Of a DNA stretch of 64,000 bases, positions 23,484 through 39,517 are shown in pieces. Both the position numbers and the translations under genes were made by a program. The notes beneath the pieces were generated by a model. It was given only the letters and a program-made list of their open reading frames with translations. It was not told the origin of the DNA and searched no databases. Position 1 is the first letter of the stretch; every line of letters begins with the position of its first letter. Origin of the DNA: Synechocystis sp. PCC 7338 (lineage in GTDB: Bacteria > Cyanobacteriota > Cyanobacteriia > Cyanobacteriales > Microcystaceae); assembly GCF_018282115.1 (NCBI RefSeq), contig NZ_CP054306.1:2961488-3025487 (forward strand), read 5' to 3'.

Positions 23484-23604
23484 CAAAAAGTGTATTTGGG
23501 TCAACGTTACGGCAAATTCCGAATCAACTTGATGCACACAAAACAGTTGTAACGCCTATTCTGTAGAGTTTTTACTGTGCCACCCTGATACCGCCACCGC
23601 TGTA

Positions 23605-23701
23605 TTAGACAGGAATTGCCATCGAAGCAAAGAAGTTAGACAACGATCGCCAAAGTTAAACATGGACGTAAACAGGAACGTAGATCTGCCCCTGGGATAG
23701 T
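23605..23701 (+). promoter_or_regulatory. Exopolysaccharide promoter box 1 (12-bp-period direct repeats)
   Basis: Upstream of the STAS-sugar transferase gene lie three 7-bp boxes at exact 12-bp period: TTAAACA (23656), GTAAACA (23668) and GTAGATC (23680). After the third there are 9 bp and then a -10-like GATAGT (23696-23701). Further copies TTAGACA (23636) and TTAGAC (23605) lie upstream. The same layout precedes the genes at 35757 and 36928. The third repeat occupies the place of a -35 element, as at an activator-dependent promoter. This is sequence pattern; the regulator is not known. Confidence 0.7.
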
Positions 23702-23762
23702 AGGGATAGGTCAACGGAGCCCCCTCCCAGACCGATGTCTCCTTCACCGCCTGGTAATCATT

Positions 23763-24722
23763 ATGGCTAGCGCTGTTCAACTAATTGAAATGCCCGCTCT
23801 GTTTGGTCAAGCAGAAGTAGTTGCTCTCCATGATCAGTTAAGAAATTGGCTCTATCAAGAAATTAACGTAGAAGCCCAACTGCAACGAGTAATTTTTGAT
23901 TTCGCTAAAACTCAGGGGTTGGATAGCAGTGCCATCATTTATCTACGACGGTTAGGGCGTTGGGCCCAGGCTCGGGGCATTGAAATTATGGGTTGGAGCG
24001 TGGGGCCAAAAGTACAGACCCTTTTCCAACAGGCTGGCATTGACGAGTATTTAACCCTGCCTGCCGTCACTAACCAAGTGATTGCCCCAGAAGAAAAATT
24101 AGCCCTGGAAGTCCACCCCTCAGTCCAGTCCAAGGCAAAACGGTTTATGGATATGGTAGGGGCAGTTATGGGTTTGGGAATCACTGCTCTGTTATTTGTT
24201 CCCCTGGCGATCGCCATTAAGTTAGATAGTCCTGGCCCGGTGCTTTATTCCCAACTGCGCTGTGGCTATCGGGGCAAACAATTTCGGATTTGGAAATTCC
24301 GTTCCATGGTGGTCAATGCCGACGACCTGAAACAAAAAGTGGAAAACCAAATTGAAGGAGCATTTTTCAAAAACGAAAATGACCCCCGCATCACCAAATT
24401 GGGTCACTTTCTACGCAAAACCAGCCTGGATGAATTTCCCCAATTTTTTAATATCCTGTTGGGAGAAATGAGTTTGGTGGGTACCCGCCCCCCCACATTA
24501 GATGAAGTAGATCAGTACGAAATTCATCATGGCGAACGGCTGGAAGTCAAACCTGGCTTAACGGGGGAATGGCAGGTCAATGGTCGCTCCTCCATCAGTA
24601 ATTTTGAAGAAGTGGTGGCCCTGGATTTGCAGTACCAACAAAAGTGGAGCATTTGGCATGACCTCAAGCTCCTGGTGAAAACCATCACCGTAGTATTTTC
24701 TAAACATAGCGGTGCTTGCTAG
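23763..24722 (+). CDS. STAS-domain / polyprenyl-phosphate sugar-1-phosphate transferase fusion
   Basis: Initiating enzyme of the exopolysaccharide pathway: transfers a sugar-1-phosphate from a nucleotide sugar to undecaprenyl phosphate at the inner membrane. Residues about 1-115 form a STAS domain (DFAKTQGLDSSAIIYLRRLG), normally a protein-interaction or anti-sigma-antagonist module. From about 125 on is a WbaP/CpsE-type transferase core: KRFMDMVGAVMGLGITALLF membrane hairpin, GKQFRIWKFRSMV, LRKTSLDEFPQFFNILLGEMSL, VGTRPPT, KPGLTGEWQVNGRS. The usual N-terminal multi-helix membrane domain is replaced by the STAS domain. First gene of the seven-gene operon. Confidence 0.88.
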   Translation: MASAVQLIEMPALFGQAEVVALHDQLRNWLYQEINVEAQLQRVIFDFAKTQGLDSSAIIYLRRLGRWAQARGIEIMGWSVGPKVQTLFQQAGIDEYLTLPAVTNQVIAPEEKLALEVHPSVQSKAKRFMDMVGAVMGLGITALLFVPLAIAIKLDSPGPVLYSQLRCGYRGKQFRIWKFRSMVVNADDLKQKVENQIEGAFFKNENDPRITKLGHFLRKTSLDEFPQFFNILLGEMSLVGTRPPTLDEVDQYEIHHGERLEVKPGLTGEWQVNGRSSISNFEEVVALDLQYQQKWSIWHDLKLLVKTITVVFSKHSGAC

Positions 24723-24770
24723 GTTGCCATTTTCCATCATTGCCTACCCTCACCAAGTTTCCCCTTACCC

Positions 24771-25703
24771 ATGGCTACTAACCTTTCGCTCCATCTCTCC
24801 ACCACTGCCCAAGCCAACCGGTTGCCTAACTTCTTCATTGTTGGCGCAGCCAAAGCTGGCACCACCGCCCTGCACCATTACCTCCAACAACATCCCGCTA
24901 TCTATATGACTCCAGGCAAAGAAACTAACTTTTTTGCCTACGAAGGACAGCAGTTAAATTTTCGGGGTCCAGGGGATGAGGCGGTGGCGGATTTTTCCAT
25001 CACTAATCTGGCTGATTACCAAGCCCAATTTCAAGGAGTAACTACCGAAACGGCGATCGGGGAAGCCTGTCCTTTATACCTTTACGATCGCCAAGTAGCC
25101 CAGAGAATCCAGCACCATTGCCCCACCGCAAAAATTATTATTATCCTGCGGGAGCCAGTGGCCCGGGCCTATGCCAATTATCTCCATCTAGTGAGAGATG
25201 GCCGGGAAACAACCTTGGATTTTGCCCAGGCCCTAGCCCAGGAACCGGAGCGGACGGAAGCGAACTGGGAATGGTTTTGGCACTATCAACAGGCCGGCTA
25301 CTACGCCGAGCAGGTGCGGCGATACTATGACCTTTTCCCTGCCAACCAAATTCGGGTTTACCTCTACGAAGACTTGCGGCGCGACGCCCAAGGGCTAATG
25401 CAAGATATTTTTACTTTCCTAGAAATTAATGCCCAATTCCTGCCGGATTTCAGTGAACGGCCCAATAAATCAGGAATGCCAAAAAATCCCTGGCTCCATG
25501 GCCTGTTGACCAAACCCAATGTCCTCAAAGCCCTTGTCAAGCCTCTATTACCGCAAAAACTACGGCAGTCCATCCAGCATAGTAATTTGACTACTCCTCC
25601 CCTCGATCCGGTGCTGAAGCAACAATTGCAAACCCAGTACCGAGAAGATATTCTGGCTTGTCAAGCGTTGATCAAGCGAGACCTAACCTCCTGGCTACCA
25701 TGA
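24771..25703 (+). CDS. PAPS-dependent polysaccharide sulfotransferase
   Basis: Transfers sulfate from 3'-phosphoadenosine-5'-phosphosulfate to a glycan. The 310-aa protein has the 5'-phosphosulfate loop FFIVGAAKAGTTALHHYL near residues 21-38 and the 3'-phosphate motif LREPVARAYANYLH, as in the heparan N-sulfotransferase-like branch, and ends its core with FPANQIRVYLYEDL. No signal peptide is seen, so it should act in the cytoplasm on lipid-linked repeat units before Wzx export. Its stop overlaps the next start by 4 bp (ATGA), indicating translational coupling. It is the reason to call the locus sulfated. Confidence 0.9.
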   Translation: MATNLSLHLSTTAQANRLPNFFIVGAAKAGTTALHHYLQQHPAIYMTPGKETNFFAYEGQQLNFRGPGDEAVADFSITNLADYQAQFQGVTTETAIGEACPLYLYDRQVAQRIQHHCPTAKIIIILREPVARAYANYLHLVRDGRETTLDFAQALAQEPERTEANWEWFWHYQQAGYYAEQVRRYYDLFPANQIRVYLYEDLRRDAQGLMQDIFTFLEINAQFLPDFSERPNKSGMPKNPWLHGLLTKPNVLKALVKPLLPQKLRQSIQHSNLTTPPLDPVLKQQLQTQYREDILACQALIKRDLTSWLP

Positions 25704-26692
25704 AAACTATCTGGCATTTAATTGGCGATCGCCGGCCGGGAGGCTCAAACCACCTGGTTCGCCATTTATTGAATTCTTCCCTGGGAGAGAGTTTTGCTAG
25801 CCAAACCCTGACCCTGGAGCAAGGGCTAAAGCGAGTCAAGGGAGAGTTACCAGACGCTATCATTTTCCATTACGCTAGTGCTTGGAAATATTTACCTGCC
25901 CTGTGGCGACTGCAGACCATGGCACCGGTATATATTTGTGAGCATCACTACTGTGCTGGCTTTGAACAGCATCAAGTTAAATCTCTCCGGCGCTTCCGGC
26001 TTTTACTTAAAACTGCCTACGGATTGGCTGATGGGGTGATCAGTGTTTCCCAAGCCCAAAAACAATGGCTAATCGGCCATAAATTAGTGCATCCAGCCAA
26101 GGTAAAGGTTATTCGTCCGGCCTCTCCTCTGGCCAATTTTTTGGCTTTGCCCCTGAAACCCCCCAGCTCGACCTTAACCCTGGGGGTCTATGGACGGTTT
26201 GCGCCCCAAAAAGGCTTCGACCTCTTGTTAAAGGCGATCGCCAACCTGCCCTCGGATCTTCCAATCCGAATCAAATTGGGGGGCTACGGTGAGGATGAAG
26301 CCTTGATTAGGCAATTAACCGCTGTCCTGCCTGTAGTGCAATTGGTGGGGCCAGTGGATGATGTACCAACTTTTTTGGCCGATTGTGACGGGGTAATTAT
26401 TCCCTCCCGTTGGGAACCTTGGGGTTTGGTGGCGTTGGAAGCCAAAGCGGCCGGAAAAGGTATCATCGCCACCGCCGTGGATGGACTTCCGGAACAAGTA
26501 GATGGGTTTGGTCTGCTTTGTCCCCCAGAACAGATGGAAATGTTGACTAGAGCGATCGCCAAAGTCAGTCCAGAACAATTACAACAATGGGGCCAGGAAG
26601 GAAGGATAGCCGTGGCCAATGCCTGGGAAAAATGTGTACAGGAATGGCATGACTATCTGACGGCGGCCATAGAGTGGGGCCATGGGAGCTAG
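25700..26692 (+). CDS. GT4 family glycosyltransferase
   Basis: A 330-aa GT-B fold glycosyltransferase. The start at ATG 25700 is set by the ATGA overlap with the sulfotransferase stop; the open frame extends further upstream but inside that gene. The C-terminal domain has the family donor-binding features LGVYGRFAPQKGFDLLLKAI, GGYGEDEALIRQL, VPTFLADCDGVIIPSRWEPWGLVALEAKAAG with the EX7E-type glutamates. It would add a sugar to the lipid-linked intermediate; donor and acceptor are unknown. Confidence 0.88.
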   Translation: MKTIWHLIGDRRPGGSNHLVRHLLNSSLGESFASQTLTLEQGLKRVKGELPDAIIFHYASAWKYLPALWRLQTMAPVYICEHHYCAGFEQHQVKSLRRFRLLLKTAYGLADGVISVSQAQKQWLIGHKLVHPAKVKVIRPASPLANFLALPLKPPSSTLTLGVYGRFAPQKGFDLLLKAIANLPSDLPIRIKLGGYGEDEALIRQLTAVLPVVQLVGPVDDVPTFLADCDGVIIPSRWEPWGLVALEAKAAGKGIIATAVDGLPEQVDGFGLLCPPEQMEMLTRAIAKVSPEQLQQWGQEGRIAVANAWEKCVQEWHDYLTAAIEWGHGS

Positions 26693-26704
26693 CTAAATGG
26701 CGGA

Positions 26705-28069
26705 ATGTCGTTGGCAATCTCTTACAATGAAGCCTTCAAAGTCAAATCAATCCGGTGTCCAGGGACGGTTAGGGGAGAAGAAACCCGGGTGAAGGAATTA
26801 ATCGCCAAGCTTAAAGCCAAATTTAGCCACAAAGACGGTACTTTTGTGCGAAACCTCGGTTGGCTGGGGGGATCGGGGGCGATTATTCGGGTTTCCCGGT
26901 TGATTGCAACGGTTATCCTAGCCCGATTTTTGACCAAGGAAGATTACGGCCTGGCGGCGTTGGTGTTAACCACCAATGAGTTTGTGCGAGTTTTTACCCG
27001 TAATGGGGTGGTCATTCGCCTGATCCAAACTGAAGCAGAGCGGTTGGAAGAGTTGGCCGAATCGGCCTACTGGCTCAATTGGCTGATGTTTATTGGGTTA
27101 TTTATGGTGCAATGTTTAGTGGCGTTCCCCATTGCTACTTTTTACGACAATCAACGCCTAATTTTGCCCATCTGTGCCATGGCAGTGAACCTGCTCACTA
27201 TTCCCCTGGGCATTATCCAAGCGGCCCTAATTCAGAGGGAAGGACGGTTTAAAATTATTGCCCTGGCGGAGTTAAGCCAAATTTCCAGCGACAATATCCT
27301 CTCCGCCATCTTTGCCCTGTTGGGGTTTGGTCTCTGGGCGATTATTTTGCCTAAAATTTTAGTAGCCCCCATTTGGGTTTACTTTATGCGCCGCTACCAT
27401 CCTTGGCGACCTTCTAAAGGGTTTCACCGTCATCACTGGGGGGATTTAATTGGTTTTGGTAAATCGGTGTTGGGGGTGGAGTTGTTAAATACCCTGCGTA
27501 GTAATTTGGATTACCTCATCATTGGCCGCTTTTTGAGCGTGGAAGCTTTGGGGGTTTACTACTTTGCTTTTAATGCTGGTCTAGGTATTAGTTTGGGCAT
27601 TATCACCTCCATTAAGGCGGCTCTGCTCCCCCACCTGTGTGACGTGCGAGATAACTTGGCTCAGTTCCGGGCCCGCTATTGGCAGAGTCAAAAAACCATT
27701 GCCATGGTGATTATTCCCTTTGTGCTTCTACAAGCCAGTTTGGCGCCCTTTTATGTGCCCCTCGTTTTTGGTGATCGGTGGGCTGGAGCCATTCCTATTT
27801 TGATGTTAATTTGTCTATCGGCCATTCCCCGGCCTTTTGCCGATGCTGCTTCCCAATTATTGCTAGCGGTGGATAAGCCCCAATGGGACCTTTGGTGGAA
27901 TTTAATTTTTACTACCCTTTTTGCTGGTTGTTTAATGTGGGGAGTGCAAGGGGGCAATGTGGGGGTGGCGATCGCCGTTTTGGCCACTCATTGGCTCTGT
28001 TTACCCCTATTTTCGCTTTGGGCTTCCCGCACAATATTTCGACGTTTGGCTTTGGCCGGGGAAGTATAA
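26705..28069 (+). CDS. Wzx-type polysaccharide repeat-unit flippase
   Basis: A MATE/MOP-superfamily flippase (RfbX/Wzx/WzxC branch) with 12 or more hydrophobic helices, expected to move lipid-linked repeat units across the inner membrane. Typical features are RVSRLIATVILARFLTKEDYGLAAL near the N-terminus and VYYFAFNAGLGISLG in the middle. The annotated start is ATG 26705, but a GTG at 26789 (VKELIAKLKAKF) has a better ribosome site (GGGAGAAG) and matches where homologues usually begin, so the true protein may be about 28 residues shorter. Its stop abuts the next start directly. Confidence 0.85.
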   Translation: MSLAISYNEAFKVKSIRCPGTVRGEETRVKELIAKLKAKFSHKDGTFVRNLGWLGGSGAIIRVSRLIATVILARFLTKEDYGLAALVLTTNEFVRVFTRNGVVIRLIQTEAERLEELAESAYWLNWLMFIGLFMVQCLVAFPIATFYDNQRLILPICAMAVNLLTIPLGIIQAALIQREGRFKIIALAELSQISSDNILSAIFALLGFGLWAIILPKILVAPIWVYFMRRYHPWRPSKGFHRHHWGDLIGFGKSVLGVELLNTLRSNLDYLIIGRFLSVEALGVYYFAFNAGLGISLGIITSIKAALLPHLCDVRDNLAQFRARYWQSQKTIAMVIIPFVLLQASLAPFYVPLVFGDRWAGAIPILMLICLSAIPRPFADAASQLLLAVDKPQWDLWWNLIFTTLFAGCLMWGVQGGNVGVAIAVLATHWLCLPLFSLWASRTIFRRLALAGEV

Positions 28070-29137
28070 ATGATGAGGCGTTGGTTGCTTACTTTGGGAT
28101 TACTTGCACTGGGTTGGCAACAAGGGGTCTGGGCCCTACCCTTTTCCCCAGGCGATCGCCTGGAAGTTTCCATTCCCAACGAAAAATATTTTGCTGGGGT
28201 TTACGTAGTCAACCAGGTCGGGGTGATCGAAGTGCCTTTTTTGGGGCCCGTGGCTGTGGAAGGGTTAGAACGTGCCGCAGTGGAAGAAAAACTCCATCAA
28301 TTACTAACCGACCAGGGTTATTTTCCCCCGGATAAACTCCAGCTATCAGTGCAGGTGCTGCAATGGGCTCCGGTACAAGTGACGGTGGCAGGGGAGGTAT
28401 TCCAGCCAGGGCGGGTACTGATTGAAAATCCTGGAGAACCCAGCAACGAAATTACGGTGCCTCCAGAAAGTCAGTCGGTGACGGGGGATTATCCTTTTTG
28501 GCGCTACGGCATTAACGCACTCCGGGCCGTGGGGGGCGTTTTACCCACAGCGGATGTAGCCAATATTGTGGTGCAACGGGGAGAGGAAGAAATTCCCCTA
28601 GACCTGTCGGGGGTATTCACCGGGGATGCGGTGGCCGATATTCCCCTCATGGCTGGCGATCGACTAGTGGTGCCCAGCACTGGCCAGGTGCAACCGGCCT
28701 TGGCACGTCCCTCCCAAATCACTCCCCCTGGTATAAAAGTATTTATTTCTAACCTCACCGTACCTGCCAATAGCAATGCCACCTCGGCAGTGGGGAACCA
28801 ACAAGAAGGCATCACCTTTCCCTATGGGGCCCGCTTTAGTCAGGCAGTGGTGGCGGCCAACTGTGTGGGGGGTACTGCTAATGTCAACGCCAATCGCCGC
28901 GCTATTTTGGTGCGGGTGGACACGGCCAGTGGAGCAACCCTGGTCACCGAAAAACCGGTGGAAGAATTGGTGCGTAATTCCCACAGCAACACAGACAATC
29001 CCCTACTCATGCCAAGGGACGCCATTGCTTGTTACGATTCCGGTATGACCAACACTAGGGATATTTTCCGCTCCATCACTGATTTACTCAGTCCCCTAGA
29101 CCCCTTTTTGATTTTCCGTAATCTTTTCTTCCGTTAG
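28070..29137 (+). CDS. Wza-like outer-membrane polysaccharide export protein
   Basis: OPX protein with a cleavable signal peptide (MMRRWLLTLGLLALGWQQGVWA, cleaved near ALP). The mature protein starts with the poly-export motif FSPGDRLEVSIPNE, followed by VVNQVGVIEVPFLGPV and an SLBB-like domain (VTVAGEVFQPGRVLIENPG). At 355 aa it is of normal size. No lipobox cysteine is seen, unlike E. coli Wza. The C-terminus ends in a hydrophobic DPFLIFRNLFFR segment. It forms the exit channel partner of the co-polymerase encoded next. Confidence 0.88.
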   Translation: MMRRWLLTLGLLALGWQQGVWALPFSPGDRLEVSIPNEKYFAGVYVVNQVGVIEVPFLGPVAVEGLERAAVEEKLHQLLTDQGYFPPDKLQLSVQVLQWAPVQVTVAGEVFQPGRVLIENPGEPSNEITVPPESQSVTGDYPFWRYGINALRAVGGVLPTADVANIVVQRGEEEIPLDLSGVFTGDAVADIPLMAGDRLVVPSTGQVQPALARPSQITPPGIKVFISNLTVPANSNATSAVGNQQEGITFPYGARFSQAVVAANCVGGTANVNANRRAILVRVDTASGATLVTEKPVEELVRNSHSNTDNPLLMPRDAIACYDSGMTNTRDIFRSITDLLSPLDPFLIFRNLFFR

Positions 29138-29168
29138 GGGTTTTAACTATACCGTTAGGTTAATCGCT

Positions 29169-30695
29169 ATGGCCACCACTTCCTCCTCCCCAACTAAGGA
29201 CCGGTTTCCCAACGGTAATGAATCTGAAGCCCTTAAATCCCCTGAAGATGGTGCCATGGACAATGTTGAGGTAGGGGAAATGGATGGAGAAGAGGGCATC
29301 GCAACAGTTAAACCAAGATTAAGCTTGCCTTTGGGGCGCATTGCTAAATATTTAACTTTGGCGGTGGGGGCCAATACATTACTGTGGGCGGGAACGTTAA
29401 GTTACCTGAAGCACACCGCTCCCACCTACACCAGTGAATTAGTGGTGCATGTCGCTGGTAATGCCCTGGGGGTAAACCTCAACCTCCCCGACGTGGGCCA
29501 GGCGGCCACTTCCACCACCTCCGCCTTTGGCAGTTCTTCTGACCCAAGGGAAAATTACAAATTACTAGCCCTGGGGGATACGGTGATTCAAGAAGCGGCG
29601 GCCAGTGTGAGCATAGATGTGGAAGAATTTGGTGAGCCGAAAATTATCCTCATTCCCAACACCACCACGATTCGTATTTCCCAATCGGGTCCTAGCCCCC
29701 AGATAGCCCAACGCAAAGCCCTCAGTTTGTACCAAACCCTAGAACGGCGGCTCAATACCCTGAGGCAAATTGAACAGGAAAAACGGGACGGGGCCATTAC
29801 TTCCGCCCTGGAGGATTCTCAAAACAAACTTACCCAGGCCCAAGCCCAGTTATCAAACTATAAAGCCCAGTCTGGCTTGAGTTCTTCCCAACAGGTGACT
29901 AATTTGATCAGCACCATCGAGACTCTCCGCAAACAACGGGCGGAAAAGGTGGCCGAAAGTCAACAAATTGGCGATCGCCTGCAAAGTTTGACCTTAGCGG
30001 TGCAATTAACGCCGGAACAAGCTCCCACGGTGTTGGCTCTGCAAACAGACCAATATTTTCAGAAGAGTTTGCAAGAATATACCACCGCCAGCACACAGTT
30101 AAATGCTCTGTTGGAAGAGCGGGGCCCCAACTATCCAGATGTGGTGCAACTCAAACAAAAGCAAGGGGCGGCCCTGGCCACGGTGCTGGAACGGGGTCAA
30201 GCTCTTTTGGGTAAGGCCATTACCCTGGAGGAAATTGAACGGTTGAATTTGGATAATAGCAATGAGTCCGGTGTGAAGCGGGGGGAACTGTTTCAGCAAC
30301 TAATTACCCTGCAGGCTGAGTATGAGGGCATTAGGGCGGAGGTGAATGCGTTAACCCAACAGGTGAGTGAGCTAGAAGCTCGGCTGAAAATTATGGTGCA
30401 AAAGGAATCGGTGCTGGAAAACTATCTCCGTAAAGTGCAGATAGCGGAGGCCATTTTTACTTCCACCCTGGCTAAGGCGGATTTGGGCAAAAGTGACCCC
30501 TTTGGTTCCTTTCCCCTGATGCAATTGGTGGAGCCCCCCACCTTGCCCGATACCCCCTCCGCACCGAAAACTAAGCTAGTGCTGGCCGGAGCGGCGATCG
30601 GTTCTGCCCTGGTTACCTTTGGGCTGACCTTACTGTGGTGGCGCAACACAATTTTAATAGTACTGACCAAAATTTCTCGCCAAATCCTCGCGTGA
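29169..30695 (+). CDS. Wzz/GumC-type polysaccharide co-polymerase (no kinase domain)
   Basis: A 508-aa polysaccharide co-polymerase controlling chain length and bridging to the export channel. The N-terminal 58 residues are acidic and cytoplasmic, TM1 is near residues 59-80 (YLTLAVGANTLLWAGTLSYL), followed by the Wzz-like PTYTSELVVHV strand, a long coiled coil (about 195-430), the PPTLPDTPSAPKTKLVL proline-rich motif, and TM2 near 474-494. The C-terminus stops soon after TM2, so there is no BY-kinase (Walker A/A' and Tyr cluster) as in Wzc; a separate kinase would have to lie elsewhere. Confidence 0.87.
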   Translation: MATTSSSPTKDRFPNGNESEALKSPEDGAMDNVEVGEMDGEEGIATVKPRLSLPLGRIAKYLTLAVGANTLLWAGTLSYLKHTAPTYTSELVVHVAGNALGVNLNLPDVGQAATSTTSAFGSSSDPRENYKLLALGDTVIQEAAASVSIDVEEFGEPKIILIPNTTTIRISQSGPSPQIAQRKALSLYQTLERRLNTLRQIEQEKRDGAITSALEDSQNKLTQAQAQLSNYKAQSGLSSSQQVTNLISTIETLRKQRAEKVAESQQIGDRLQSLTLAVQLTPEQAPTVLALQTDQYFQKSLQEYTTASTQLNALLEERGPNYPDVVQLKQKQGAALATVLERGQALLGKAITLEEIERLNLDNSNESGVKRGELFQQLITLQAEYEGIRAEVNALTQQVSELEARLKIMVQKESVLENYLRKVQIAEAIFTSTLAKADLGKSDPFGSFPLMQLVEPPTLPDTPSAPKTKLVLAGAAIGSALVTFGLTLLWWRNTILIVLTKISRQILA

Positions 30696-31963
30696 ACGAT
30701 CCCATCAAGCCTGAAAATTTTCCCGAACGGCTGGTTTGGTACAGCATGGTCTACATTTATGGTTTTTACCTCCTGGGGGCCACCTACATTGTCGGGTCGG
30801 TGTTGGGGGTAATTCTGGGACTATACGTAGGGCTGAAATGGTGGTTGCAAACGGAAGCCACCCCGGAAGCGGAAAAAATTAAAATCCATTGGCTGATCTG
30901 GGTTTGGATCATTAGCATGGCAATGATGCAGGTGGCATTAGTGATGGGACATTTAGATTTTGACCTGCCCACAAGCACCATTATCAAATCCTCCATTGGC
31001 TGGCTCAAGGGATGGGCGGCCCTAGCCCTGTATCCCCTGGCGGGCTGTTTACCCATTCGGCCCCGACTGATTTACCGAGCCGTTTGTGTGATCTGTTTGC
31101 AAACCCTGCTCATTTCTCCCCTACTAATCATTGCGCCCCTACTCCATTTCCCCGAAATTCTCTATGTTTCTCCCCTCAAAGCGGTGGGAGGCCCAGGCAC
31201 AACTTTTTTTGATGTTTCTTTTTACGAAGTGGATTTTGACGGTTCCATTCGTCAGCGGTTGTTTACTCCCTGGGGGCCGGCGTTGGGCTTTGTGGCCAAT
31301 ATCTATTTCGTGCTCGCCCTTAAGGAAAAAAATAAAAAATGGCGTTGGTTTGGCATTATCGGTTCCCTCTACCTAGCCCAAATTTGCAAGTCCCGCCTGG
31401 CGATCGTTTCCCTGATTTTGACCCCCATTTTCACCTTTTGCCTGGCCCGTCTCAGTCGTCCCTTTACCCTCATGGTGTTGGGCATAGGGAGTACCATTAC
31501 CGGCATCATGGCGCCCTGGTTATTCAACTTATTGGATACCATAATGCGAAAATTCACCGAGGCTCGGTCGGAATCTAGCCGAGTGCGCACCACCTTGAAG
31601 CAAATTGCCGGTTATCGCTGGGAAACGGAAGCTCCCATTTGGGGCCATGGCATTGTGGAATCGGGACCCCACGTGGTGGAATATATGCCCATTGGCTCCC
31701 ACCATACTTGGTACGGTTTGTTATTTGTCAAGGGCATTGTTGGTTTTTATGCTTTGGCCATTCCCATGGTTCTTAGTCTTTTTTTGTTATTAATTAAAGC
31801 CCAACGCTATGCAGTGGCGGAGGCGGGATTGGCAGTATTATTTATTCTTTTTCTCTACACTTTTGGGGAAAATTTAGAAATCCTCGCCTATCTTTATTGG
31901 CCTGGTCTAATTATCATGGGACTGGGTTTTTATGCTTCTGGCGATCGCCCGGATTATCAATGA
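30692..31963 (+). CDS. Wzy/O-antigen ligase-like polysaccharide polymerase
   Basis: A 423-aa polytopic membrane protein with about ten to twelve helices and a large periplasmic loop (about 160-260) as in Wzy/WaaL proteins; the O-antigen-ligase-like segment GSHHTWYGLLFVKGIVGFY follows a polar stretch rich in Arg/Glu. It would join flipped repeat units into polymer. The start is taken as GTG 30692, overlapping the co-polymerase stop by 4 bp (GTGA); the open frame begins at a GTG at 30635 inside the upstream gene. Last gene of the operon; it is convergent with the STAND gene, with 14 bp between the stops. Confidence 0.82.
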   Translation: MNDPIKPENFPERLVWYSMVYIYGFYLLGATYIVGSVLGVILGLYVGLKWWLQTEATPEAEKIKIHWLIWVWIISMAMMQVALVMGHLDFDLPTSTIIKSSIGWLKGWAALALYPLAGCLPIRPRLIYRAVCVICLQTLLISPLLIIAPLLHFPEILYVSPLKAVGGPGTTFFDVSFYEVDFDGSIRQRLFTPWGPALGFVANIYFVLALKEKNKKWRWFGIIGSLYLAQICKSRLAIVSLILTPIFTFCLARLSRPFTLMVLGIGSTITGIMAPWLFNLLDTIMRKFTEARSESSRVRTTLKQIAGYRWETEAPIWGHGIVESGPHVVEYMPIGSHHTWYGLLFVKGIVGFYALAIPMVLSLFLLLIKAQRYAVAEAGLAVLFILFLYTFGENLEILAYLYWPGLIIMGLGFYASGDRPDYQ

Positions 31964-31977
31964 GTCAATGTCACTAG

Positions 31978-34344
31978 CTAAGGTAAGTTGCTAGAAATTG
32001 ATGGTGCATAGATCAAGAGATTATTTTCCAGTTCTGCCTGCACAGCGGGGCTAACATAACAACCACTGTGGAGACATTTATGGAAGAAAACTAGCCCATG
32101 GTAATATTGCCGCAAAAGATTAATTTGGCTGGGGCTTAGTTCAGCTACACAACCAAGCTGATGATGTTGACACACGATGGTTTTCATCCCCTGATACCAA
32201 TCTGGCCCCTGCATCCGCCACCATTGCAACAGGGACGACTTCTCTTCCATGGGGGAAGGTAGTTGCTCTTTGCAAATTTGTAACGCTTTCGTCAAGGCAG
32301 GAGTGAGGGAAAATTTTCTTTCAATATCAAGGGCAAAGCCAAGGTTTAAATACTGCTCAAAAGTAGGATTTTGGGCGAGGGACTGGGCTAAGGAAAGTAT
32401 ACGGATCAATTGTAAATCTAGAGAAATTTCCTGGTGGGGATTTTCACTCAAACTCTGGTCTAGACGGGTAGCTAAATTAAGTCCAAAATCGTAGAGAATG
32501 CCCAAATAAAAAGCCCTAATGGCCACGGGTTTATGGTTAGTCTGGAGTAATTCACTTTTGGTATCTAAATATTTTATTACAGCAATTAAACCAGCATCAC
32601 TGGCCACTAGGCGATCGAGCTCGAATTTCAGTTGCAGTAGAAAATCATCTGCTAGGGGAGCAAGGGAAATGGCCAGAGCAATAACTTCCTGCCAATGGGG
32701 ATCAGTGAGCCGTTGGGCAATAATTTCGGGGTCATTAACTACGGAATCTGCAATGGCTAATTTTTTGCAAAAAACCCACTGTTGAGCCGTCAAATATTCC
32801 TGAAAAATGACATGGGAAAAGCAATACACTGCCTTGGCTTGCTCCACCAAAAGCCCATGTTGCACTTGAATAGCTCGTAGGACATTCTCGCTTTTGAGCC
32901 ACAGCAAATCCCCACTAACGGGGGCGCTGGCAATGCTAGCTAAATATTGTTGAATAATTAATAAAACTTGATCTTTTTCAAAATAAAAATAACCCTGCGC
33001 AAACATGCGGGCAGCTATTTCTGATAATAGTTTTAACTTTTGGGGTAGAGTTAACTCGTTATAGCCATAGTCTGTTTGAAATGCCTGGGAGCGGGAACCC
33101 CGGTTAAGCAGAACGTTTAGCCCTTCTTTATACAGTTTGGCTGGTTTACTGGGCAGTTGGGCCCTTTCTTGGAAAGCACAGCAAATTAACTCTAGTAAAA
33201 GGGGCGTTTTGGCTAGTTCGAGGACGAAGCGATTTTCTGGTCGTCGAAGATGGGCTAATAACTGGTCGCTTTTGCTAATTTTGTCATTGTCTTCAGGGAC
33301 AACGGACTGGTTAAACCAATTGTCAATATAGGATTTAATTTGGTGCTCATTGGCATTGGCAACTTCCAGGTATGTAAAACCAGTAAAAAAGTAATTTTGA
33401 GCAGCAATGCGGGAAGTAATTAAGATATTATTGTTGGGAAAAGATTGCACAAATTCCTGGATTTTTTGCAGAAATTTTTCACTGGTTTTGCGGGAAATTT
33501 CATCCAATGCGTCCAATAGTAACCAGAATTTGCCCTGTTGCAGTAACTCAGTTTGTAGCTCCGGAGTAATCTCTTCGATCACCAATAGGGTTTGGAGATA
33601 ATCTGTCATACTCCAATCTGGTTCATGCTGTTGGTAGCGTTCAATGTCCCGCAGGGGGATGAAAACAGGGATATGATCGGGCTGAATTTGGCTGTTGTAA
33701 CACTGTAGAGCTAGGTACTTCAACAAGGTAGTTTTGCCGGAGCCGGGCCGGCCCAAAATGATCAAATGTCCATGGTGGTCGATGGCCTCCTGAATGGATA
33801 AACCCATGGGCTGGGGCTGGGTCACACCTTGGAGCAAAGACCCTTGTAAATCATCTACCTCCAACCATTGTTGGTGGCTAAGGTGGGGCAACAAACTCAG
33901 ATCAGTGTAAATTTCGTCTAAGGCAAACTGCTGGGTCAAGTTAAAGGAAGATTGTACCCTGCTGTACTGCTTAAAGAACTGGTATCTCAACTTAGCTTTG
34001 ACCGCTAAATAGGTTTCCTCCAAGCTTGGTGGGGGCTGGGGCACGGTGGCTTCCATAACCAGGCGATCGCCTGCCTCGATGCTAACGCCTTCATCTACAT
34101 TGTCAGGGTCATCTTCTCCCTGGGGAAGATCGGCAATTTCCTCCCAATCTAGGCCCAACTGAAAACATAGTTCCATGAAAATGTAACGCTCCACGGGCCT
34201 GCCGCTGAGAAACTTCCAGACCGAATTGCGGGTGGAAAGTCCAGCTTCAGTCGCTAAATAAGCCTGGGTCCAGCCTCGTCTGGTCATGGCCTGTTTTGCC
34301 CTGGCTTGACCGCTAGAGGAAGACTTGAGGGAACGTTTGCTCAT
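31978..34344 (-). CDS. HTH-NACHT (STAND-class) regulatory NTPase
   Basis: A 788-aa signal-transduction ATPase. Residues about 10-75 form a helix-turn-helix-like domain (AMTRRGWTQAYLATEAGLST), then a linker and a NACHT NTPase with Walker A GRPGSGKTTLLKYL (near residue 200), Walker B LLLDALDE (near 275) and sensor NNILITSR. The C-terminal 400 residues are helical repeats without a clear enzymatic domain. ATG 34344 (MSKRSLKSS) is preferred over 34389. It lies 96 bp downstream of the response-regulator gene on the same strand, inside the exopolysaccharide locus, which suggests a transcriptional role; defence NACHT proteins are an alternative reading, made less likely by the context. Confidence 0.85.
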   Translation of the reverse strand: MSKRSLKSSSSGQARAKQAMTRRGWTQAYLATEAGLSTRNSVWKFLSGRPVERYIFMELCFQLGLDWEEIADLPQGEDDPDNVDEGVSIEAGDRLVMEATVPQPPPSLEETYLAVKAKLRYQFFKQYSRVQSSFNLTQQFALDEIYTDLSLLPHLSHQQWLEVDDLQGSLLQGVTQPQPMGLSIQEAIDHHGHLIILGRPGSGKTTLLKYLALQCYNSQIQPDHIPVFIPLRDIERYQQHEPDWSMTDYLQTLLVIEEITPELQTELLQQGKFWLLLDALDEISRKTSEKFLQKIQEFVQSFPNNNILITSRIAAQNYFFTGFTYLEVANANEHQIKSYIDNWFNQSVVPEDNDKISKSDQLLAHLRRPENRFVLELAKTPLLLELICCAFQERAQLPSKPAKLYKEGLNVLLNRGSRSQAFQTDYGYNELTLPQKLKLLSEIAARMFAQGYFYFEKDQVLLIIQQYLASIASAPVSGDLLWLKSENVLRAIQVQHGLLVEQAKAVYCFSHVIFQEYLTAQQWVFCKKLAIADSVVNDPEIIAQRLTDPHWQEVIALAISLAPLADDFLLQLKFELDRLVASDAGLIAVIKYLDTKSELLQTNHKPVAIRAFYLGILYDFGLNLATRLDQSLSENPHQEISLDLQLIRILSLAQSLAQNPTFEQYLNLGFALDIERKFSLTPALTKALQICKEQLPSPMEEKSSLLQWWRMQGPDWYQGMKTIVCQHHQLGCVAELSPSQINLLRQYYHGLVFFHKCLHSGCYVSPAVQAELENNLLIYAPSISSNLP

Positions 34345-34440
34345 GAATTTTTCCACAACAACAGTTAGCCATCCCAAACCCCATCGCACTACTATTGTTA
34401 ACTCGGCTGTAGATGGGGGAAGATGGTCGGCTATTCTTTA

Positions 34441-35373
34441 TTATCCATCGGTTTCCTGGAGTAGGAATCCCAGAAGATGGGAAAGATTTTCCCCTTGTTG
34501 AGTTACTTCCGTCTCCGCCATATCAAGATCCGATCGCCATTGGATAATCACTAGTCCTAGGGGCTGACCCCGCCAAGCAATGGGCTGAACCGCCGTGGGA
34601 AATAGGGCCATGGAAGGCAACTTGGTTGACCAATGGTTCTTTGCCGAAGGAGTCACACCGGCTTTAAACAAAATGCCTCCATCTATTTGCAGGCAAACTA
34701 AGGCGGCAAAGTCATCATTAATAGCGGTGAAATCAATCCCCATAGATTCCACTTCCGGATCGATAACCACAAAAGGAATGGCATCGGCGATCGATGCCAC
34801 CAGCACAATGCGCAATCCGTTGAAAAGTTTTAATGCCCCTGTGAGCATGCCGTTGAGGTAATTTTGGTTAGGATTAGTCTGGGCCAAAGACCGCCAATTT
34901 TCTTGCCAGAAACTATCCCAGTTCCTACGGGAAACCAACTCCTTCCGGGCGGCTTCTACTTCGTTGAACAAGGATTTGAGATTAATTAGTTGATGAATGC
35001 GACGACGGAAAGAAGACCAGTGGATCGGCTTATTGATGTAGTCCGTTGCTCCGGCCGTAAAGGCTTTATCAATGGATTCTTGATCATCCAAAAAAGTGAT
35101 CATTAAAATGGGCACTTTATATCCTCCAGGCAGAAGACGGATTTGCTCGCAACAGGTGAAACCGTCCATACCGGGCATAATTGCATCCAACAGTACAATG
35201 TCCGGTTGTAACTGGATAAATTTATCGAGGCACTCCTGACCGTTAGTGGCTTCCGCCAACCGATAATTATCCTCTTTAAGGGCCATCAACAGCAGCGATC
35301 GGGTGACTCTATCGTCTTCAACCACAAGAACCTTAAAAGTGCGTTGCCCACCGGCCAGATCATCAGACAACAT
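34441..35373 (-). CDS. Response regulator (REC plus GAF-like C-terminal domain)
   Basis: A 310-aa response regulator. The receiver domain (about residues 13-132) has the acidic pair D20/D21 (VVEDD), phosphoacceptor D63 (VLLDAIMPGMDG), the switch Thr in MITF and the conserved Lys in YINKP. The C-terminal 150 residues have a GAF/PAS-like pattern (GLRIVLVASIADAIPFVVID ... GQPLGLVIIQWRSD), with no DNA-binding domain, so its output is probably by protein contact, perhaps with the STAND protein encoded downstream. No cognate histidine kinase is in this window. Its promoter must lie in the 380-bp divergent region. Confidence 0.88.
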   Translation of the reverse strand: MLSDDLAGGQRTFKVLVVEDDRVTRSLLLMALKEDNYRLAEATNGQECLDKFIQLQPDIVLLDAIMPGMDGFTCCEQIRLLPGGYKVPILMITFLDDQESIDKAFTAGATDYINKPIHWSSFRRRIHQLINLKSLFNEVEAARKELVSRRNWDSFWQENWRSLAQTNPNQNYLNGMLTGALKLFNGLRIVLVASIADAIPFVVIDPEVESMGIDFTAINDDFAALVCLQIDGGILFKAGVTPSAKNHWSTKLPSMALFPTAVQPIAWRGQPLGLVIIQWRSDLDMAETEVTQQGENLSHLLGFLLQETDG

Positions 35374-35756
35374 TATTGTGAATAAACCCTGAATTAACGA
35401 GAGATGATTGGTGTCATTGCTTGCTTAAAGAAAAAATCTCACTATTGCCTAATTTTTAGAGAAAATAAAGCCCCACAGACCGCCAAAAATAGTTTTCGTG
35501 CTGAGGAGGAGTGGTTTTTGTCTTCGTTTCCTGCACGGGTTCGGCCCCGTAAACGGTGAGATAGCCTTGATGGACAGATTTTATTGTAACTATTTTGGGC
35601 ATGGCATTTCACCCCATTGGGTTAGACGTTTGGAACCGATTAATCAGAAGTTAGACAAATTTGCCCTGAAGTTAAACATTGGCGTCAACAGGAACGTAGG
35701 TCCTCGTCCTCCATCATTGGAGTTATGGAAAACGTTTCGCCCCGAGGATGCCTACG
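35374..35756. other. Divergent intergenic region of the exopolysaccharide regulators
   Basis: This 383-bp region separates the reverse response-regulator gene from the forward GT2 gene. It contains promoter box 2 (35622-35717) oriented towards the GT2 gene. The response-regulator promoter should be in the A+T-rich left part (35374-35470). A plus-strand frame at 35498 reads through the box into the GT2 gene in another frame and is not credible. Confidence 0.5.
35622..35717 (+). promoter_or_regulatory. Exopolysaccharide promoter box 2 (12-bp-period direct repeats)
   Basis: Same architecture as upstream of 23763: TTAAACA (35672), GTCAACA (35684) and GTAGGTC (35696) at exact 12-bp period, then 9 bp, then a -10-like CATCAT (35712-35717). 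Upstream copies TTAGACA (35651) and TTAGAC (35622) recur at similar spacing. From 35647 to 35700 the two regions are near-identical in long runs (for example AACAGGAACGTAG), so they may derive from a duplicated promoter. The -10 match here is weaker than in boxes 1 and 3. Confidence 0.65.
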
Positions 35757-36797
35757 ATGAAACTAGTCTCTGTGATTATTCCCCTCCACAACACCGAAGC
35801 CTACATTGCCGATACAATTCGTTCTGTGCTGGCCCAAACCTATACCAATTTTGAACTCATAGTTGTGGATGATGAATCCAGCGATCAGAGTGCGATGATC
35901 GTGCGTCAGTTCAAGGACCAACGGATTAAACTAATTCATCAGAAAAATCGGGGACTAGCGGGGTCGCGCAACACGGGAATTCGCCAAGCCCAAGGTGAAT
36001 ATTTCGCTTTTTTAGATGCGGATGACCTCTGGTTACCAGAAAAATTGGCCAGCCACGTTGAACATCTAGACCAAAATCCCCACATTGGGGTAAGTTTTAG
36101 CCGTTCTTCCTTCATTGATGGTCAAGGTCAACCCTTGGGTATCCATCAAATGCCCAAGTTAAAAGACATTGATGCCGGCCATCTCCTCTGCCGTAATCCC
36201 GTGGGCAACGGTTCTGCTCCAGTAATCCGTCGCCAGGTATTGGATGATATTGGTTTTTTGGACGATCGCCATGGTTTTCCCGAGTTCTGTTACTTTGACG
36301 AAGCGTTCCGGTTGCGGTCAGAGGACATTGAATGTTGGATTCGCATTGCCATTGTGACCGACTGGGTAATAGAAGGCATTCCTGCTGCGTTAACTCTCTA
36401 CCGTGTCAATAATCAGGGACTGTCGGCGGATGTGGACTTGCAATTCCAGTCCTGGCTCCAGGTAATGGAAAAAACTGCCCAGTATGCACCAGCATTAGTG
36501 GCCCGATGGGGCAAACCGGCCAAGGCTTATCAATTGCGTTACCTGGCTCGGCGGGCAGTGCGCTTCCAAGACACACACAACGCCCTGAATTTATTAGGCC
36601 AGGCCCTCAGCACCCATTGGCAAATTATTCTAGTGGAACCCCGTCGCACCGGCCTGACCATTGCCGCTGCCTGTTTACTCAAAATCTGTCCCCCTACTTT
36701 TTATCAATCCATCGAGGCGATCGCCATTAAAGTTACCGGAGCTCTGCAGGCCAGAAAAATTGAACGGGAAGCCAACGCTTCGTTCCAACTGGTCTAG
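35757..36797 (+). CDS. GT2 family glycosyltransferase
   Basis: A 346-aa GT-A fold enzyme: VSVIIPLHNTEAYIADTIRSVLAQTY at the N-terminus, VVDDESSDQS, the nucleotide-sugar DXD region FLDADDLW, and a C-terminal helical portion with ADVDLQFQSW. It would elongate the lipid-linked repeat unit from the cytoplasmic face. The start at ATG 35757 (MKLVSVIIP) is favoured because GAGG lies at a proper distance; ATG 35748 is in frame but too close to it. First gene of a second forward transcription unit of the locus. Confidence 0.9.
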   Translation: MKLVSVIIPLHNTEAYIADTIRSVLAQTYTNFELIVVDDESSDQSAMIVRQFKDQRIKLIHQKNRGLAGSRNTGIRQAQGEYFAFLDADDLWLPEKLASHVEHLDQNPHIGVSFSRSSFIDGQGQPLGIHQMPKLKDIDAGHLLCRNPVGNGSAPVIRRQVLDDIGFLDDRHGFPEFCYFDEAFRLRSEDIECWIRIAIVTDWVIEGIPAALTLYRVNNQGLSADVDLQFQSWLQVMEKTAQYAPALVARWGKPAKAYQLRYLARRAVRFQDTHNALNLLGQALSTHWQIILVEPRRTGLTIAAACLLKICPPTFYQSIEAIAIKVTGALQARKIEREANASFQLV

Positions 36798-36831
36798 GGA
36801 ATTTACTGGGAATTTCATCAAAAGCATTAGG

Positions 36832-36877
36832 TTAGACAATTACGTAAACACGACTGTAAACATGCCCCCCTCATACT
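36832..36877 (+). promoter_or_regulatory. Exopolysaccharide promoter box 3 (12-bp-period direct repeats)
   Basis: Three boxes TTAGACA (36832), GTAAACA (36844) and GTAAACA (36856), each 12 bp apart, then nine bases (TGCCCCCCT) and a -10-like CATACT (36872-36877). In box 1 the nine bases are TGCCCCTGG, so the spacing to the -10 is identical and the spacer partly conserved. It lies about 50 bp upstream of the Alg14-like gene. It is the cleanest of the three copies. Confidence 0.7.
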
Positions 36878-36927
36878 GAAAATTAAGGAAAACGGGGTAT
36901 GCCCCCACCATCAATGGGATGCAGACA

Positions 36928-37380
36928 ATGAAACTTTTACTGATTAGCTCCAGCGGCGGCCACTTCAATGCCCTATGTCAACTGGCTTCCTTCTGGAAAA
37001 ACCATGATCGCCAATGGGTCACCTTCCCCACCGCCACCACCTGCAATTACCTCGCCCAGGAAAAAGTCCATTGGGCCTTTGGCCCCACCAACCGAAATTT
37101 GCCCAACCTCTGCCGCAATCTGGGTTTAGCCGCCTGCATTATCTACCAAGAACGGCCAGACATGGTGATCACCACCGGAGCCGGGGTAGCAGTGCCCTTC
37201 CTTTTATTCGCCAAACTGTTGGGCATTAAAACTATTTTTATTGAATCCTTCACTAGGGTTAATGACCTCAGCCTCTCTGCCAAATTAATTCTGCCCTGTA
37301 TTGATGTGCTCTATGTGCAGTGGAAACAGTTACAACAGCGTTATCCCCAAGCTAAGTTGATCGAAGTTTCAGTCCAATAA
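36928..37380 (+). CDS. PssD/Alg14-like glycosyltransferase subunit
   Basis: A 150-aa protein matching the Alg14/PssD/Cps14F family: KLLLISSSGGHFNALCQL at the N-terminus, PDMVITTGAGVAVPFLLFAKLLGIKTIFIES in the centre, and DVLYVQWKQLQQRYPQAKLI at the end. In this family Alg14 is the membrane-anchored acceptor subunit that recruits a catalytic Alg13-type partner, here encoded 82 bp downstream. ATG 36928 is chosen over 36919 because of the GGGA upstream. Sugar and acceptor unknown. Confidence 0.87.
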   Translation: MKLLLISSSGGHFNALCQLASFWKNHDRQWVTFPTATTCNYLAQEKVHWAFGPTNRNLPNLCRNLGLAACIIYQERPDMVITTGAGVAVPFLLFAKLLGIKTIFIESFTRVNDLSLSAKLILPCIDVLYVQWKQLQQRYPQAKLIEVSVQ

Positions 37381-37462
37381 ATAGCAATAATCTGATTATT
37401 TTTGCATCTTTTCTATTTAAATTTACTAAACCCAATACCCTTCCCAAAAACTAATTCAAGCC

Positions 37463-38050
37463 ATGATTTTAATTACCGTCGGCACAGAAAAATTCCCCTT
37501 CAACCGTCTCCTGCAATGGATTGATTATCTAATTCAACAGCAATTTATTAATCCCCAACAAGAAAAGGTACTAATTCAATATGGCAGTTGTACATTTCTG
37601 CCCCAAGGGGGAGAAAAATATCAAGTTTTGGTAGAAGCAGATTTTAAAACCATGCTAGACCAGGCCCGACTAATTATTTCCCACTGTGGAGAAGGTAGTT
37701 TCGACATTCTCGCCAAACTAAACAAACCCTTTATTTTGGTTCCCCGTAGCCATGGGTTCGATGAACATGTGGACGACCATCAAGTGGAACTGGCCCAAGC
37801 CTTAGCCGAAAAGGGAGTGCCCATTGCCTATACCCCCGGTGATTTGGTGCGGTTTCTGACTAACCCTGTCCATGTTGTCGTCCCGGCTCCCAGTCATTGC
37901 TATGCCCAGGCCAGTCAGTGGTTAACCCAGACAGCCCAGACGGCTCAACCACCTCGCAGAAGTTCTGTTTATCCAGGCTGGATCAACGCTGTAGTCGAAT
38001 TTGCTAAGGGCTTAGCCCGCCGTTTACCAGATTTTGCCCAGGAAGGCTAA
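37463..38050 (+). CDS. PssE/Alg13-like glycosyltransferase subunit
   Basis: A 195-aa donor-binding partner of the Alg14-like protein. It opens MILITVGTEKFPFNRLLQWID and contains ARLIISHCGEGSFDILAKLNKPFILVPR and the HGFDEHVDDHQVELAQALAEKG motif, all typical of Alg13/PssE/Cps14G. Together with the upstream gene it makes a split GT-B glycosyltransferase as in several capsule loci. It is longer than the usual ~160 aa because of a C-terminal tail from about residue 155. Confidence 0.87.
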   Translation: MILITVGTEKFPFNRLLQWIDYLIQQQFINPQQEKVLIQYGSCTFLPQGGEKYQVLVEADFKTMLDQARLIISHCGEGSFDILAKLNKPFILVPRSHGFDEHVDDHQVELAQALAEKGVPIAYTPGDLVRFLTNPVHVVVPAPSHCYAQASQWLTQTAQTAQPPRRSSVYPGWINAVVEFAKGLARRLPDFAQEG

Positions 38051-38128
38051 TGTTTTTCCCCAAGGTAATCTGCCAATAACTCGTTCCCCCCTCCCTAACC
38101 ATATTGTTCACCTTACCAAAACTCCATT

Positions 38129-38443
38129 ATGAATATTTCCTCCTTAGCCCCGATCCCTTACCAACTAGAAATTGTTAATCCAACAATCTATTGCCCGTCG
38201 GAGCACATTGCCCCCCAAGAAATGTTCGACTGGATTCACCATGCTCCTTTCTCCACATTGATTATTGATTTGGGACAAGTAAAAACTATCCATAGCAATT
38301 TACTGATGATCCTAGCCAAAGCCCAGCATCAGGCAAGAAAAATAAGCAAAACCATTGCCCTGACTTCCGTTTCTCCAGAATGGAAAATTGTCCTGGAGAT
38401 TTCCAAACTGGATGGCCTATTCCCAATCTTGCCGTCGTTGTAG
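38129..38443 (+). CDS. Stand-alone STAS-domain protein
   Basis: A 104-aa protein with a STAS fold: FSTLIIDLGQVKTIHSNLLMILAKAQHQARKI and IALTSVSPEWKIVLEISKLDGLFPIL. The residue corresponding to the phosphorylatable Ser (D-S-[ST]-G-x-x-x-L in SpoIIAA) falls in KTIHSNLLMIL, with His before Ser; whether it is a substrate is unclear. As the locus starts with a STAS-fused transferase, this small protein may interact with the same partner. The same frame continues after the TAG, interrupted by the IS630 insertion 46 bp downstream. Confidence 0.75.
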   Translation: MNISSLAPIPYQLEIVNPTIYCPSEHIAPQEMFDWIHHAPFSTLIIDLGQVKTIHSNLLMILAKAQHQARKISKTIALTSVSPEWKIVLEISKLDGLFPILPSL

Positions 38444-38489: not shown

Positions 38490-39517
38490 CGGCGGATTTG
38501 GCGTCTAAGTGTCATAGTAGCAACAATGAGTAAAATAGTTCCGTCTAATTGTGGCAGAATTTAAGATAATGCCGATTGCTGCTAAGTTTTCAACAGATTC
38601 TTTGCCTTGAGGTCTAAATCTCCGAATAAAAGCCTTGAGTTCCCACCAAAAATGTTCAATGGGATTAAAATCTGGGGAGTAGCGTGGTAAATAAATCACC
38701 TTGGCTCCTGACGCTTCGATCATTTCTTTGACTCCTTGAACTTTATGAGCATTGAGATTGTCCATAACAACGACAGTACCTTCCCAGAGTTGTGGGATGA
38801 ATTCTTCTTTGACAAAATCTATGAACAGTTCTCCATTCATAGATTTAGGTAATAATTTTAAGCATAAAATCCCCGACAAACTCATTGCTCCTGCATAGTT
38901 GAGGCGGGCGCCCCTGTAGACAGAATCAAAGTCATAGGCTCTAGTTCCCATAAGACTTCTCGGCATATCTCGCATAATTCCCAGTAAGATGCCCATTTAG
39001 TCAAGAAATACTAAATTTTCAGGTTTCTCTTTCACAATTAAATGCCAATATTCCTTTCTTTCTTGTTGAATTTCTTCTGAGCTAGCTTTGCGATTCCTTT
39101 TTGTTTTTTTTTCGTGTTAATCTCAGGGTTTGTAAGAAGCGACACATGGTAGGTTCGCTGATTTTAATACCAGTTTTTTCTAGCCATAGCTCACAGTATT
39201 CTGAAAGAGTATAATCGGGATATTCTGCCACCATTGCTATAGCCTGCTCTTCTTTACCCATCAGCTGACTAGGTTTCCCTCCACTTGGAGCTTTTGGACA
39301 AACTTGTCACATTTCTCGTTTTAGTTTAAGCAAATCCTGTACCGTTGTTTTGCTCACTTGAAACTGCTTTGCTACTTTTCTAATCGAGGTTTGATCGCCT
39401 TCATAGGTCTTGACTATTCTCTCTCTGATGTCCACTGATAGAGCAGACATTTTACTTTTCGGTGAATTTTTACTTATGTTTATCGCCTACTTTACCACTT
39501 CGTCATGGAATCCGCCG
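38490..39517 (-). mobile_element. Degenerate IS630-family insertion sequence
   Basis: About 1.03 kb bounded by TA dinucleotides, the target duplicated by IS630/Tc1 elements: TA at 38488-38489 and 39518-39519. The ends begin CGGCGGATT on each side in inverted orientation, and a looser inverted repeat extends to about 36 bp (38485-38520 against 39487-39522). It encodes one reverse-strand transposase, now a pseudogene. It has inserted downstream of the STAS gene, at the edge of the exopolysaccharide locus. Confidence 0.85.
38505..39450 (-). pseudogene. IS630-type transposase, disrupted
   Basis: Read from ATG 39450, the N-terminal helix-turn-helix part is MSALSVDIRERIVKTYEGDQ, continuing through SIRKVAKQFQVSKTTVQDL to KREM, where a TGA interrupts. 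The frame continues to a run of nine A, where a one-base frameshift is needed (LRLTRKK to KRNRKASSEE), and the first catalytic region VFLD is followed by a TAA immediately before MGILLG, where a Glu codon is usual. The remaining C-terminal part (38505-38996) is intact, with VVVMDNLNAHK and YLPRYSPDFNPIEHFWWELK catalytic motifs. Three lesions make activity unlikely. Confidence 0.85.

Follow-up and report, generated by a model that had tools for sequence, protein, structure and literature searches.

In this study, we analysed a 64,000-nucleotide stretch of Synechocystis sp. PCC 7338 (contig NZ_CP054306.1, positions 2,961,488 to 3,025,487; hereafter the window, whose first letter is position 1) and found three arrays of short direct repeats, P1, P2 and P3, upstream of sulfated-polysaccharide genes. 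We consider that these arrays serve as operators for the XssQ homolog whose gene lies between them, with a probability of about 0.85 judged from sequence comparison, and that P1 to P3 very likely make up the set of XssQ operators in this strain. The locus, on the 3.7-Mb main contig of a 3.83-Mb genome, is by homology a relative of the xss (synechan) cluster, a known regulon. The regulatory system itself is not new, as its consensus and activator were published in 2021. As far as the literature searched shows, the new detail is the operator grammar, its tie to the -10 element and its association with the reading helix; no description of a 12-bp period or of a fixed -10 distance was found in that literature, which included text of the paper on Synechocystis PCC 6803 but not its Figure 3B.

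Each array consists of three heptamer boxes of the form [GC][GT]T[AC]RA[CT] at 12-bp steps, and all three arrays lie on the + strand, upstream of the genes at 23763 (P1), 35757 (P2) and 36928 (P3). In every case, a -10-like hexamer starts exactly 17 bp past the start of the last box. The P1 core, GTTAAAC/CGTAAAC/CGTAGAT, has its boxes at 23655, 23667 and 23679 (span 23655 to 23685), with the hexamer GATAGT at 23696 to 23701 and a distal box AAGTTAGAC at 23633 to 23641 (GTTAGAC at 23635, -44 from the last box). At P2, the core GTTAAAC/CGTCAAC/CGTAGGT (35671, 35683 and 35695; span 35671 to 35701) is followed by CATCAT at 35712 to 35717 and preceded by distal GTTAGAC boxes at 35621 and 35650 (35621 to 35656). 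The P3 core is GTTAGAC/CGTAAAC/TGTAAAC (36831, 36843 and 36855; span 36831 to 36861), with CATACT at 36872 to 36877. A first-pass annotation of this DNA had described the boxes with their coordinates, their 12-bp period, a 9-bp gap to the hexamer (10 bp in the heptamer frame) and the TGCCCC spacers, and all of these proved correct on re-reading the sequence. Its strict pattern, (G/T)TARACA three times, fits P3, the single exact match in the genome, but not P1 and P2, whose third boxes (CGTAGAT and CGTAGGT) deviate; P2 differs from it at four positions and is missed when up to three mismatches are allowed. The extra upstream copies are kept in genome G001 at 23635, 35621 and 35650, whereas the copy at 23604 is not.

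The suggestion that the repeat takes the place of a -35 element agrees with our scan, in which no sigma-70 -35/-10 pair was found on the + strand of the three upstream regions at 9 of 12 consensus positions, the -35 element being tested as a TTGACA-like sequence 16 to 18 bp from the -10 element. When the hexamer is set as -12 to -7, the core falls at about -53 to -23.

The repeats are real and non-random. The first-pass pattern, with up to three mismatches, has three matches in the window (two of which overlap, at P3) against 0.02 expected in shuffled sequences, which bears out the claim that chance does not explain it. A consensus of the three sites, again with up to three mismatches, matched P1, P2 and P3 and nothing else in the whole genome (one match for the reversed-pattern control), as expected from the proposed restriction to one locus. 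This consensus was written from the sites themselves, and therefore we built a model from 14 promoters of other genomes, picked by likeness to P1 to P3 and to the published PCC 6803 targets. On both strands of the window, this model ranked P1 (36.1), P3 (32.0) and P2 (26.8) first to third, with the next site at 8.4; the best score among 200 Markov sequences of 20 kb with upstream composition was 16.7. Single elements carry no such signal, because neither the box GTTARAC (18 occurrences in the window, 12.5 expected; no significant excess) nor the published word AAGTTNNAC (11 against 7.9 expected) rises clearly above chance.

The gene for the XssQ homolog occupies 31978 to 34344 on the - strand, with the ATG taken at 34344 and the open reading frame open to 34389. 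The product is a STAND protein (NACHT and NCH2; Pfam NACHT 2.6e-14) with an N-terminal Cro/C1-like helix-turn-helix (HTH) domain. It matches PCC 6803 XssQ at 38%, with an identical recognition helix, STRNSVWK, and at 95% its counterpart in Synechocystis salina LEGE 00031, which is the closest named record to this locus. Beside it on the same strand (34441 to 35373) lies a gene for an XssR homolog, a receiver-domain protein with 41% to PCC 6803 XssR over the matched region. According to the available text of the PCC 6803 study, XssQ is required for the expression of xssA-E and xssL-P, and 'single or tandem' AAGTTXXAC words lie upstream of xssA, E, L, N and P (PMC8205485). In an electrophoretic mobility shift assay (EMSA) on xssE with a mutant competitor, XssQ binding depended on this word, and the authors, Maeda et al., also state that such words lie upstream of some cluster genes in other cyanobacteria (PMC8205485). 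From the available part of another report, XssQ and XssR suffice in Synechococcus 7942 (PMC13125312). The first-pass annotation had named the HTH of the STAND protein as the best activator candidate and had set aside the receiver protein as having no DNA-binding domain. The homology to a protein shown to bind such boxes, and the lack of any DNA-binding family among the Pfam matches of the receiver protein, support its reading of activator-dependent promoters under the local STAND protein, as far as sequence can tell.

In an AlphaFold model of the XssQ homolog (24 sequences; mean predicted local distance difference test score, pLDDT, 80.8), the HTH helices lie at residues 10-70 (block pLDDT 81-93), followed by a linker at 75-102 with pLDDT below 50 and then the STAND core. 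The top Foldseek matches include NLRC4, NOD2 and NLRP3. The Cro/C1-like assignment of the HTH comes from weak Pfam matches (HTH_3 and HTH_31); searching the PDB with the XssQ sequence returned nothing of use, and the matches of the HTH profile were limited to weak ones to HipB (E about 0.09).

The known regulon of PCC 6803 served for comparison. We applied a model trained without PCC 6803 (14 promoters) to the 250 bp upstream of 18 annotated xss genes, which were named by gene order (xssD is not annotated in the record). The scores were 29.5 for xssP, 26.4 for xssA, 18.4 for xssN, 13.1 for xssL and 3.9 for xssE, and the other 13 were at most -0.4; the top five of 18 are exactly the five published XssQ-dependent starts, and the best reversed control reached 2.5. 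Across 17 promoters from seven genomes, some of them near relatives of one another and chosen partly by the offsets 0, -12, -24 and +17, the -10-like hexamer stands at +17; a box agreeing with the consensus at six or more of seven positions is present at offset 0 in 15 promoters, at -12 in 16 and at -24 in 13. Distal offsets, which were not used in the selection, recur at -33 or -34 (five and three promoters), -44 (six) and -56 (three). Steps of 11 bp occur inside the core in PCC 6803. Accordingly, the regular 12-bp geometry reported by the first-pass annotation holds for the three sites here but is not universal, and the array is a three-box core with optional distal boxes on a lattice of about 11 bp, locked to the -10 element, and the published word forms one part of it.

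Among relatives, the arrays go together with one type of recognition helix. The XssQ HTH was found in 38 of 47 loci, comprising 9 of STRN, 20 of SSRQ and 9 of KTRQ type; these types form three clades, the STRN proteins being one of them. Arrays are present in the genomes of all nine STRN loci, which include a match to Hydrococcus rivularis NIES-593 and the plasmid of Synechocystis sp. B12, a near copy of that of PCC 6803. On this B12 plasmid (L015:4040-10856), the annotation divides the counterparts of xssQ and xssS into several separate open reading frames, although arrays resembling those at 6803 xssN and xssP are still present. No site in the SSRQ- and KTRQ-type loci scored higher than the reversed-sequence controls, the best of which reached 20.1, in a search made mainly in 20-kb loci and by one strict pattern. 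A different box for these two types, sought in loci up to 20 kb around the genes, gave nothing above control spacings. When every heptamer was tried, with a -10-like hexamer required at +17, CTTAAAC and CTTAGAC came first in the STRN group (four of seven genomes) at 11/12-bp spacing, and no heptamer exceeded two genomes either at two control spacings or, at 11/12 bp, in the SSRQ and KTRQ groups. Since the boxes are degenerate, consecutive near-identical heptamer pairs were no more frequent than at control offsets in any of the groups. The run GLSTRNSVWK is the longest invariant stretch in six STRN proteins (10 columns against 4 for the next), although its STRN part is due to the choice of these proteins.

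The upstream regions of orthologous genes were scored as well. The family 2 glycosyltransferase (GT2) encoded behind P2 has matches (E <= 1e-60) in 8 of 50 family genomes, and an array stands upstream in six of the eight (25.7-33.4). The matrix held boxes of the present genome (G000), G003, G004 and PCC 6803, so that only G024, G025 and G026 are out of sample, with GT2 scores of 32.2, 28.0 and 25.7. Among the best XssP orthologs, four of eight have an array (28.0-33.6) and the others score 2.9-9.8; eight orthologs of the sulfotransferase, an inner gene in the window, score at most 15.4. G023 is especially informative, as it has GT2, XssP and sulfotransferase orthologs and an SSRQ-type XssQ, and no array lies upstream of these three genes (GT2, 2.4). 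None of the 22 sugar-transferase paralogs with a returned locus exceeds 4.8, and 12 of 13 sulfotransferase paralogs reach at most 3.3. The remaining one (L161, 21.1) belongs to G003, a STRN-type genome, and may be a true target; it is not a clean control. In G003, a well-formed array also lies upstream of a gene for an 875-aa DUF4114 protein (L028:9697-12427), and the regulon may reach past sugar chemistry. Several candidates were set aside. The XssQ homolog of Lyngbya confervoides (L173), considered as a STRN type without an array, has the helix ETRQSVWK, which makes it another type and no exception; no array was found in the 17.7 kb examined there. Outside the genus, the DNA pattern of P1 to P3 occurs in 3 of 45 genomes (five hits) against nine hits of the reversed pattern, which is background, and the G040 hits (28.3) look like a repeated coding stretch and not an XssQ locus.

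Several observations weigh against the assignment of the arrays to XssQ. In PCC 6803, the EMSA target xssE suits the fixed geometry poorly (3.9, against 2.5 for the best reversed control among the 18 regions), and xssA has no good third box. The GT2 gene of G004 has no array (5.4), and the XssP orthologs of G024, G025 and G026 score only 5.6-9.8. The core offsets owe part of their constancy to the choice of the promoters, and the -10-like hexamers were assigned by conservation. Distant or divergent arrays in SSRQ and KTRQ genomes could escape the search used, and with the STRN proteins in one clade, the match between helix and box may reflect a single shared ancestry and not repeated co-change. 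No XssS kinase is encoded within the locus, and the best matches in the genome (45-46%; G000:C1:164645 and 2806929) lie far away. This last absence concerns the full XssS/R/Q triplet and not the XssQ operators.

Three other explanations were considered. Direct-repeat binders such as OmpR-type response regulators suit boxes with an 11-12-bp period. A regulator of this sort, or another HTH protein, could read the boxes with XssQ nearby by chance, the more so as the link between XssQ and the boxes in this strain is drawn from sequence. We regard this as quite improbable, considering that the arrays accompany STRN-type XssQ and are missing upstream of the three G023 orthologs, that the receiver protein shows no DNA-binding family, and that the EMSA with 6803 XssQ, in the available text, needs the same word (PMC8205485). 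The three-promoter similarity could also be the trace of a recent duplication of one promoter instead of functional constraint. P1 and P2 do share AACAGGAACGTAG around boxes 2 and 3, but P3 has little in common with them besides the boxes and the -10 element, and the same geometry recurs in G003, G004, G024-G026 and PCC 6803 in upstream DNA that is otherwise different by eye. A duplication is therefore very improbable.

It is also conceivable that the arrays are XssQ operators whose working unit is the published AAGTTXXAC pair, formed by the distal box and box 1 at a distance of 20-21 bp, with boxes 2 and 3 and the -10 spacing incidental. The word AAGTTNNAC occurs twice in P1 and twice in P2, and 6803 xssE has two such words with weak further boxes. 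However, P3, which carries AGGTTAGAC and no AAGTTNNAC, has the best-formed three boxes. The word alone stays at chance level in the window, whereas the array model tells the XssQ-regulated 6803 genes apart from the unregulated ones, and nearly all of the 17 promoters retain the boxes at offsets 0 and -12, partly by selection. We consider the pair an unlikely unit, and prefer the three-box core tied to the -10 element as the XssQ operator.

On this assignment of the arrays to XssQ, XssR, under a sensor kinase, would activate XssQ, which by analogy with other STAND proteins may then oligomerise. Each protomer would place one Cro/C1-like HTH, through its flexible linker of about 30 residues, into one box, roughly on one face of the DNA. 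The oligomer would cover the site where sigma would read a -35 element, and its promoter-proximal protomers would bring RNA polymerase to the -10 element, so that -35 recognition is no longer needed. The steps of priming, chain building, sulfation, flipping and export may thereby be switched on together in this strain. A bolder and tentative reading, which we consider doubtful, is that XssQ forms a DNA-templated STAND filament on the box lattice of about 11-12 bp, with one Cro/C1-type HTH per repeat, up to five or so. The last HTH would lie within the -35/-10 spacer, at about -29 to -23, and an inflammasome-like assembly would thereby replace the -35 contact of sigma. If this were true, the switching threshold would depend on the length of the array, and the helix (STRN, SSRQ and KTRQ clades) would define separate box alphabets for many such cyanobacterial proteins.

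The first transcription unit (23763 to 31963, + strand), its co-transcription being taken from gene spacing, encodes an XssP-like priming sugar transferase, a sulfotransferase (24771), a glycosyltransferase, a Wzx flippase (26705), an OPX export protein (28070), a PCP-like protein, so labelled from a weak NCBIfam match under the cut-off, and a last protein with no family match, whose place suggests a candidate polymerase. Unit 1 combines a sulfotransferase with genes of a Wzx/Wzy-type cluster. P2 precedes the GT2 gene (35757 to 36797, + strand; upstream in-frame ATG at 35748), and P3 precedes the putative third unit (36928 to 38443, + strand), which encodes PssD-like, Glyco_tran_28_C (PssE-like) and STAS-domain proteins. 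STAS domains occur both at the N-terminus of the priming sugar transferase (23763-24722) and as a free protein (38129-38443), and a STAS-STAS contact between them is possible. Directly after unit 3 lies a piece of a DDE_3 transposase gene (38505-38996), and a DNA polymerase III gamma/tau-like protein with an intein splicing domain is encoded at 44547-47003.

In summary, a loose published consensus, at chance level in the window, has been developed into an operator grammar by which XssQ targets can be told from their neighbours. With this grammar, regulons for sulfated polysaccharides could be predicted in other cyanobacteria, and promoters could be designed for producing these polymers. The locus resembles the xss cluster on plasmid pSYSM of PCC 6803 in its STAND activator with an N-terminal HTH, its receiver partner, its sulfated-polysaccharide genes and the GTTARAC-type boxes upstream, and 6803 xssP has the same 12/12/+17 geometry as the present arrays. 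It differs in lying on the main contig and in having no adjacent XssS. Additionally, control by the arrays would extend here to flippase and export genes, because unit 1, downstream of P1, includes those for the Wzx, OPX and PCP-like proteins. This sets them apart from 6803 xssF, H and K and the chromosomal xssT; in the available text, the loss of XssQ had no substantial effect on xssF, H and K (PMC8205485).

Outside the cyanobacteria, the comparison extends to STAND proteins of two kinds. NLRC4 and NLRP3, inflammasome proteins not known to have an HTH, rank high in the Foldseek search with the XssQ model through the NACHT core, with low query-normalised TM-scores of about 0.2-0.4; their output is protein assembly, whereas that of XssQ is transcription. 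The other is MalT of E. coli, whose DNA-binding domain is of the LuxR type. According to the available part of a report on it, MalT must oligomerise in order to bind DNA and occupies several sites cooperatively, four of them at malPp800 (PMC10427625). The present protein likewise has a STAND ATPase core, and the oligomerisation of MalT and its use of several sites support the analogy. In MalT, the DNA-binding domain is C-terminal (PMC10427625, same part), whereas the present HTH is N-terminal and Cro/C1-like. By analogy, XssQ may work like a MalT, yet is not one. With MalT as the studied model, the arrays and their putative activator provide a compact system in which to study the contacts of an NLR-like STAND assembly with DNA and RNA polymerase.

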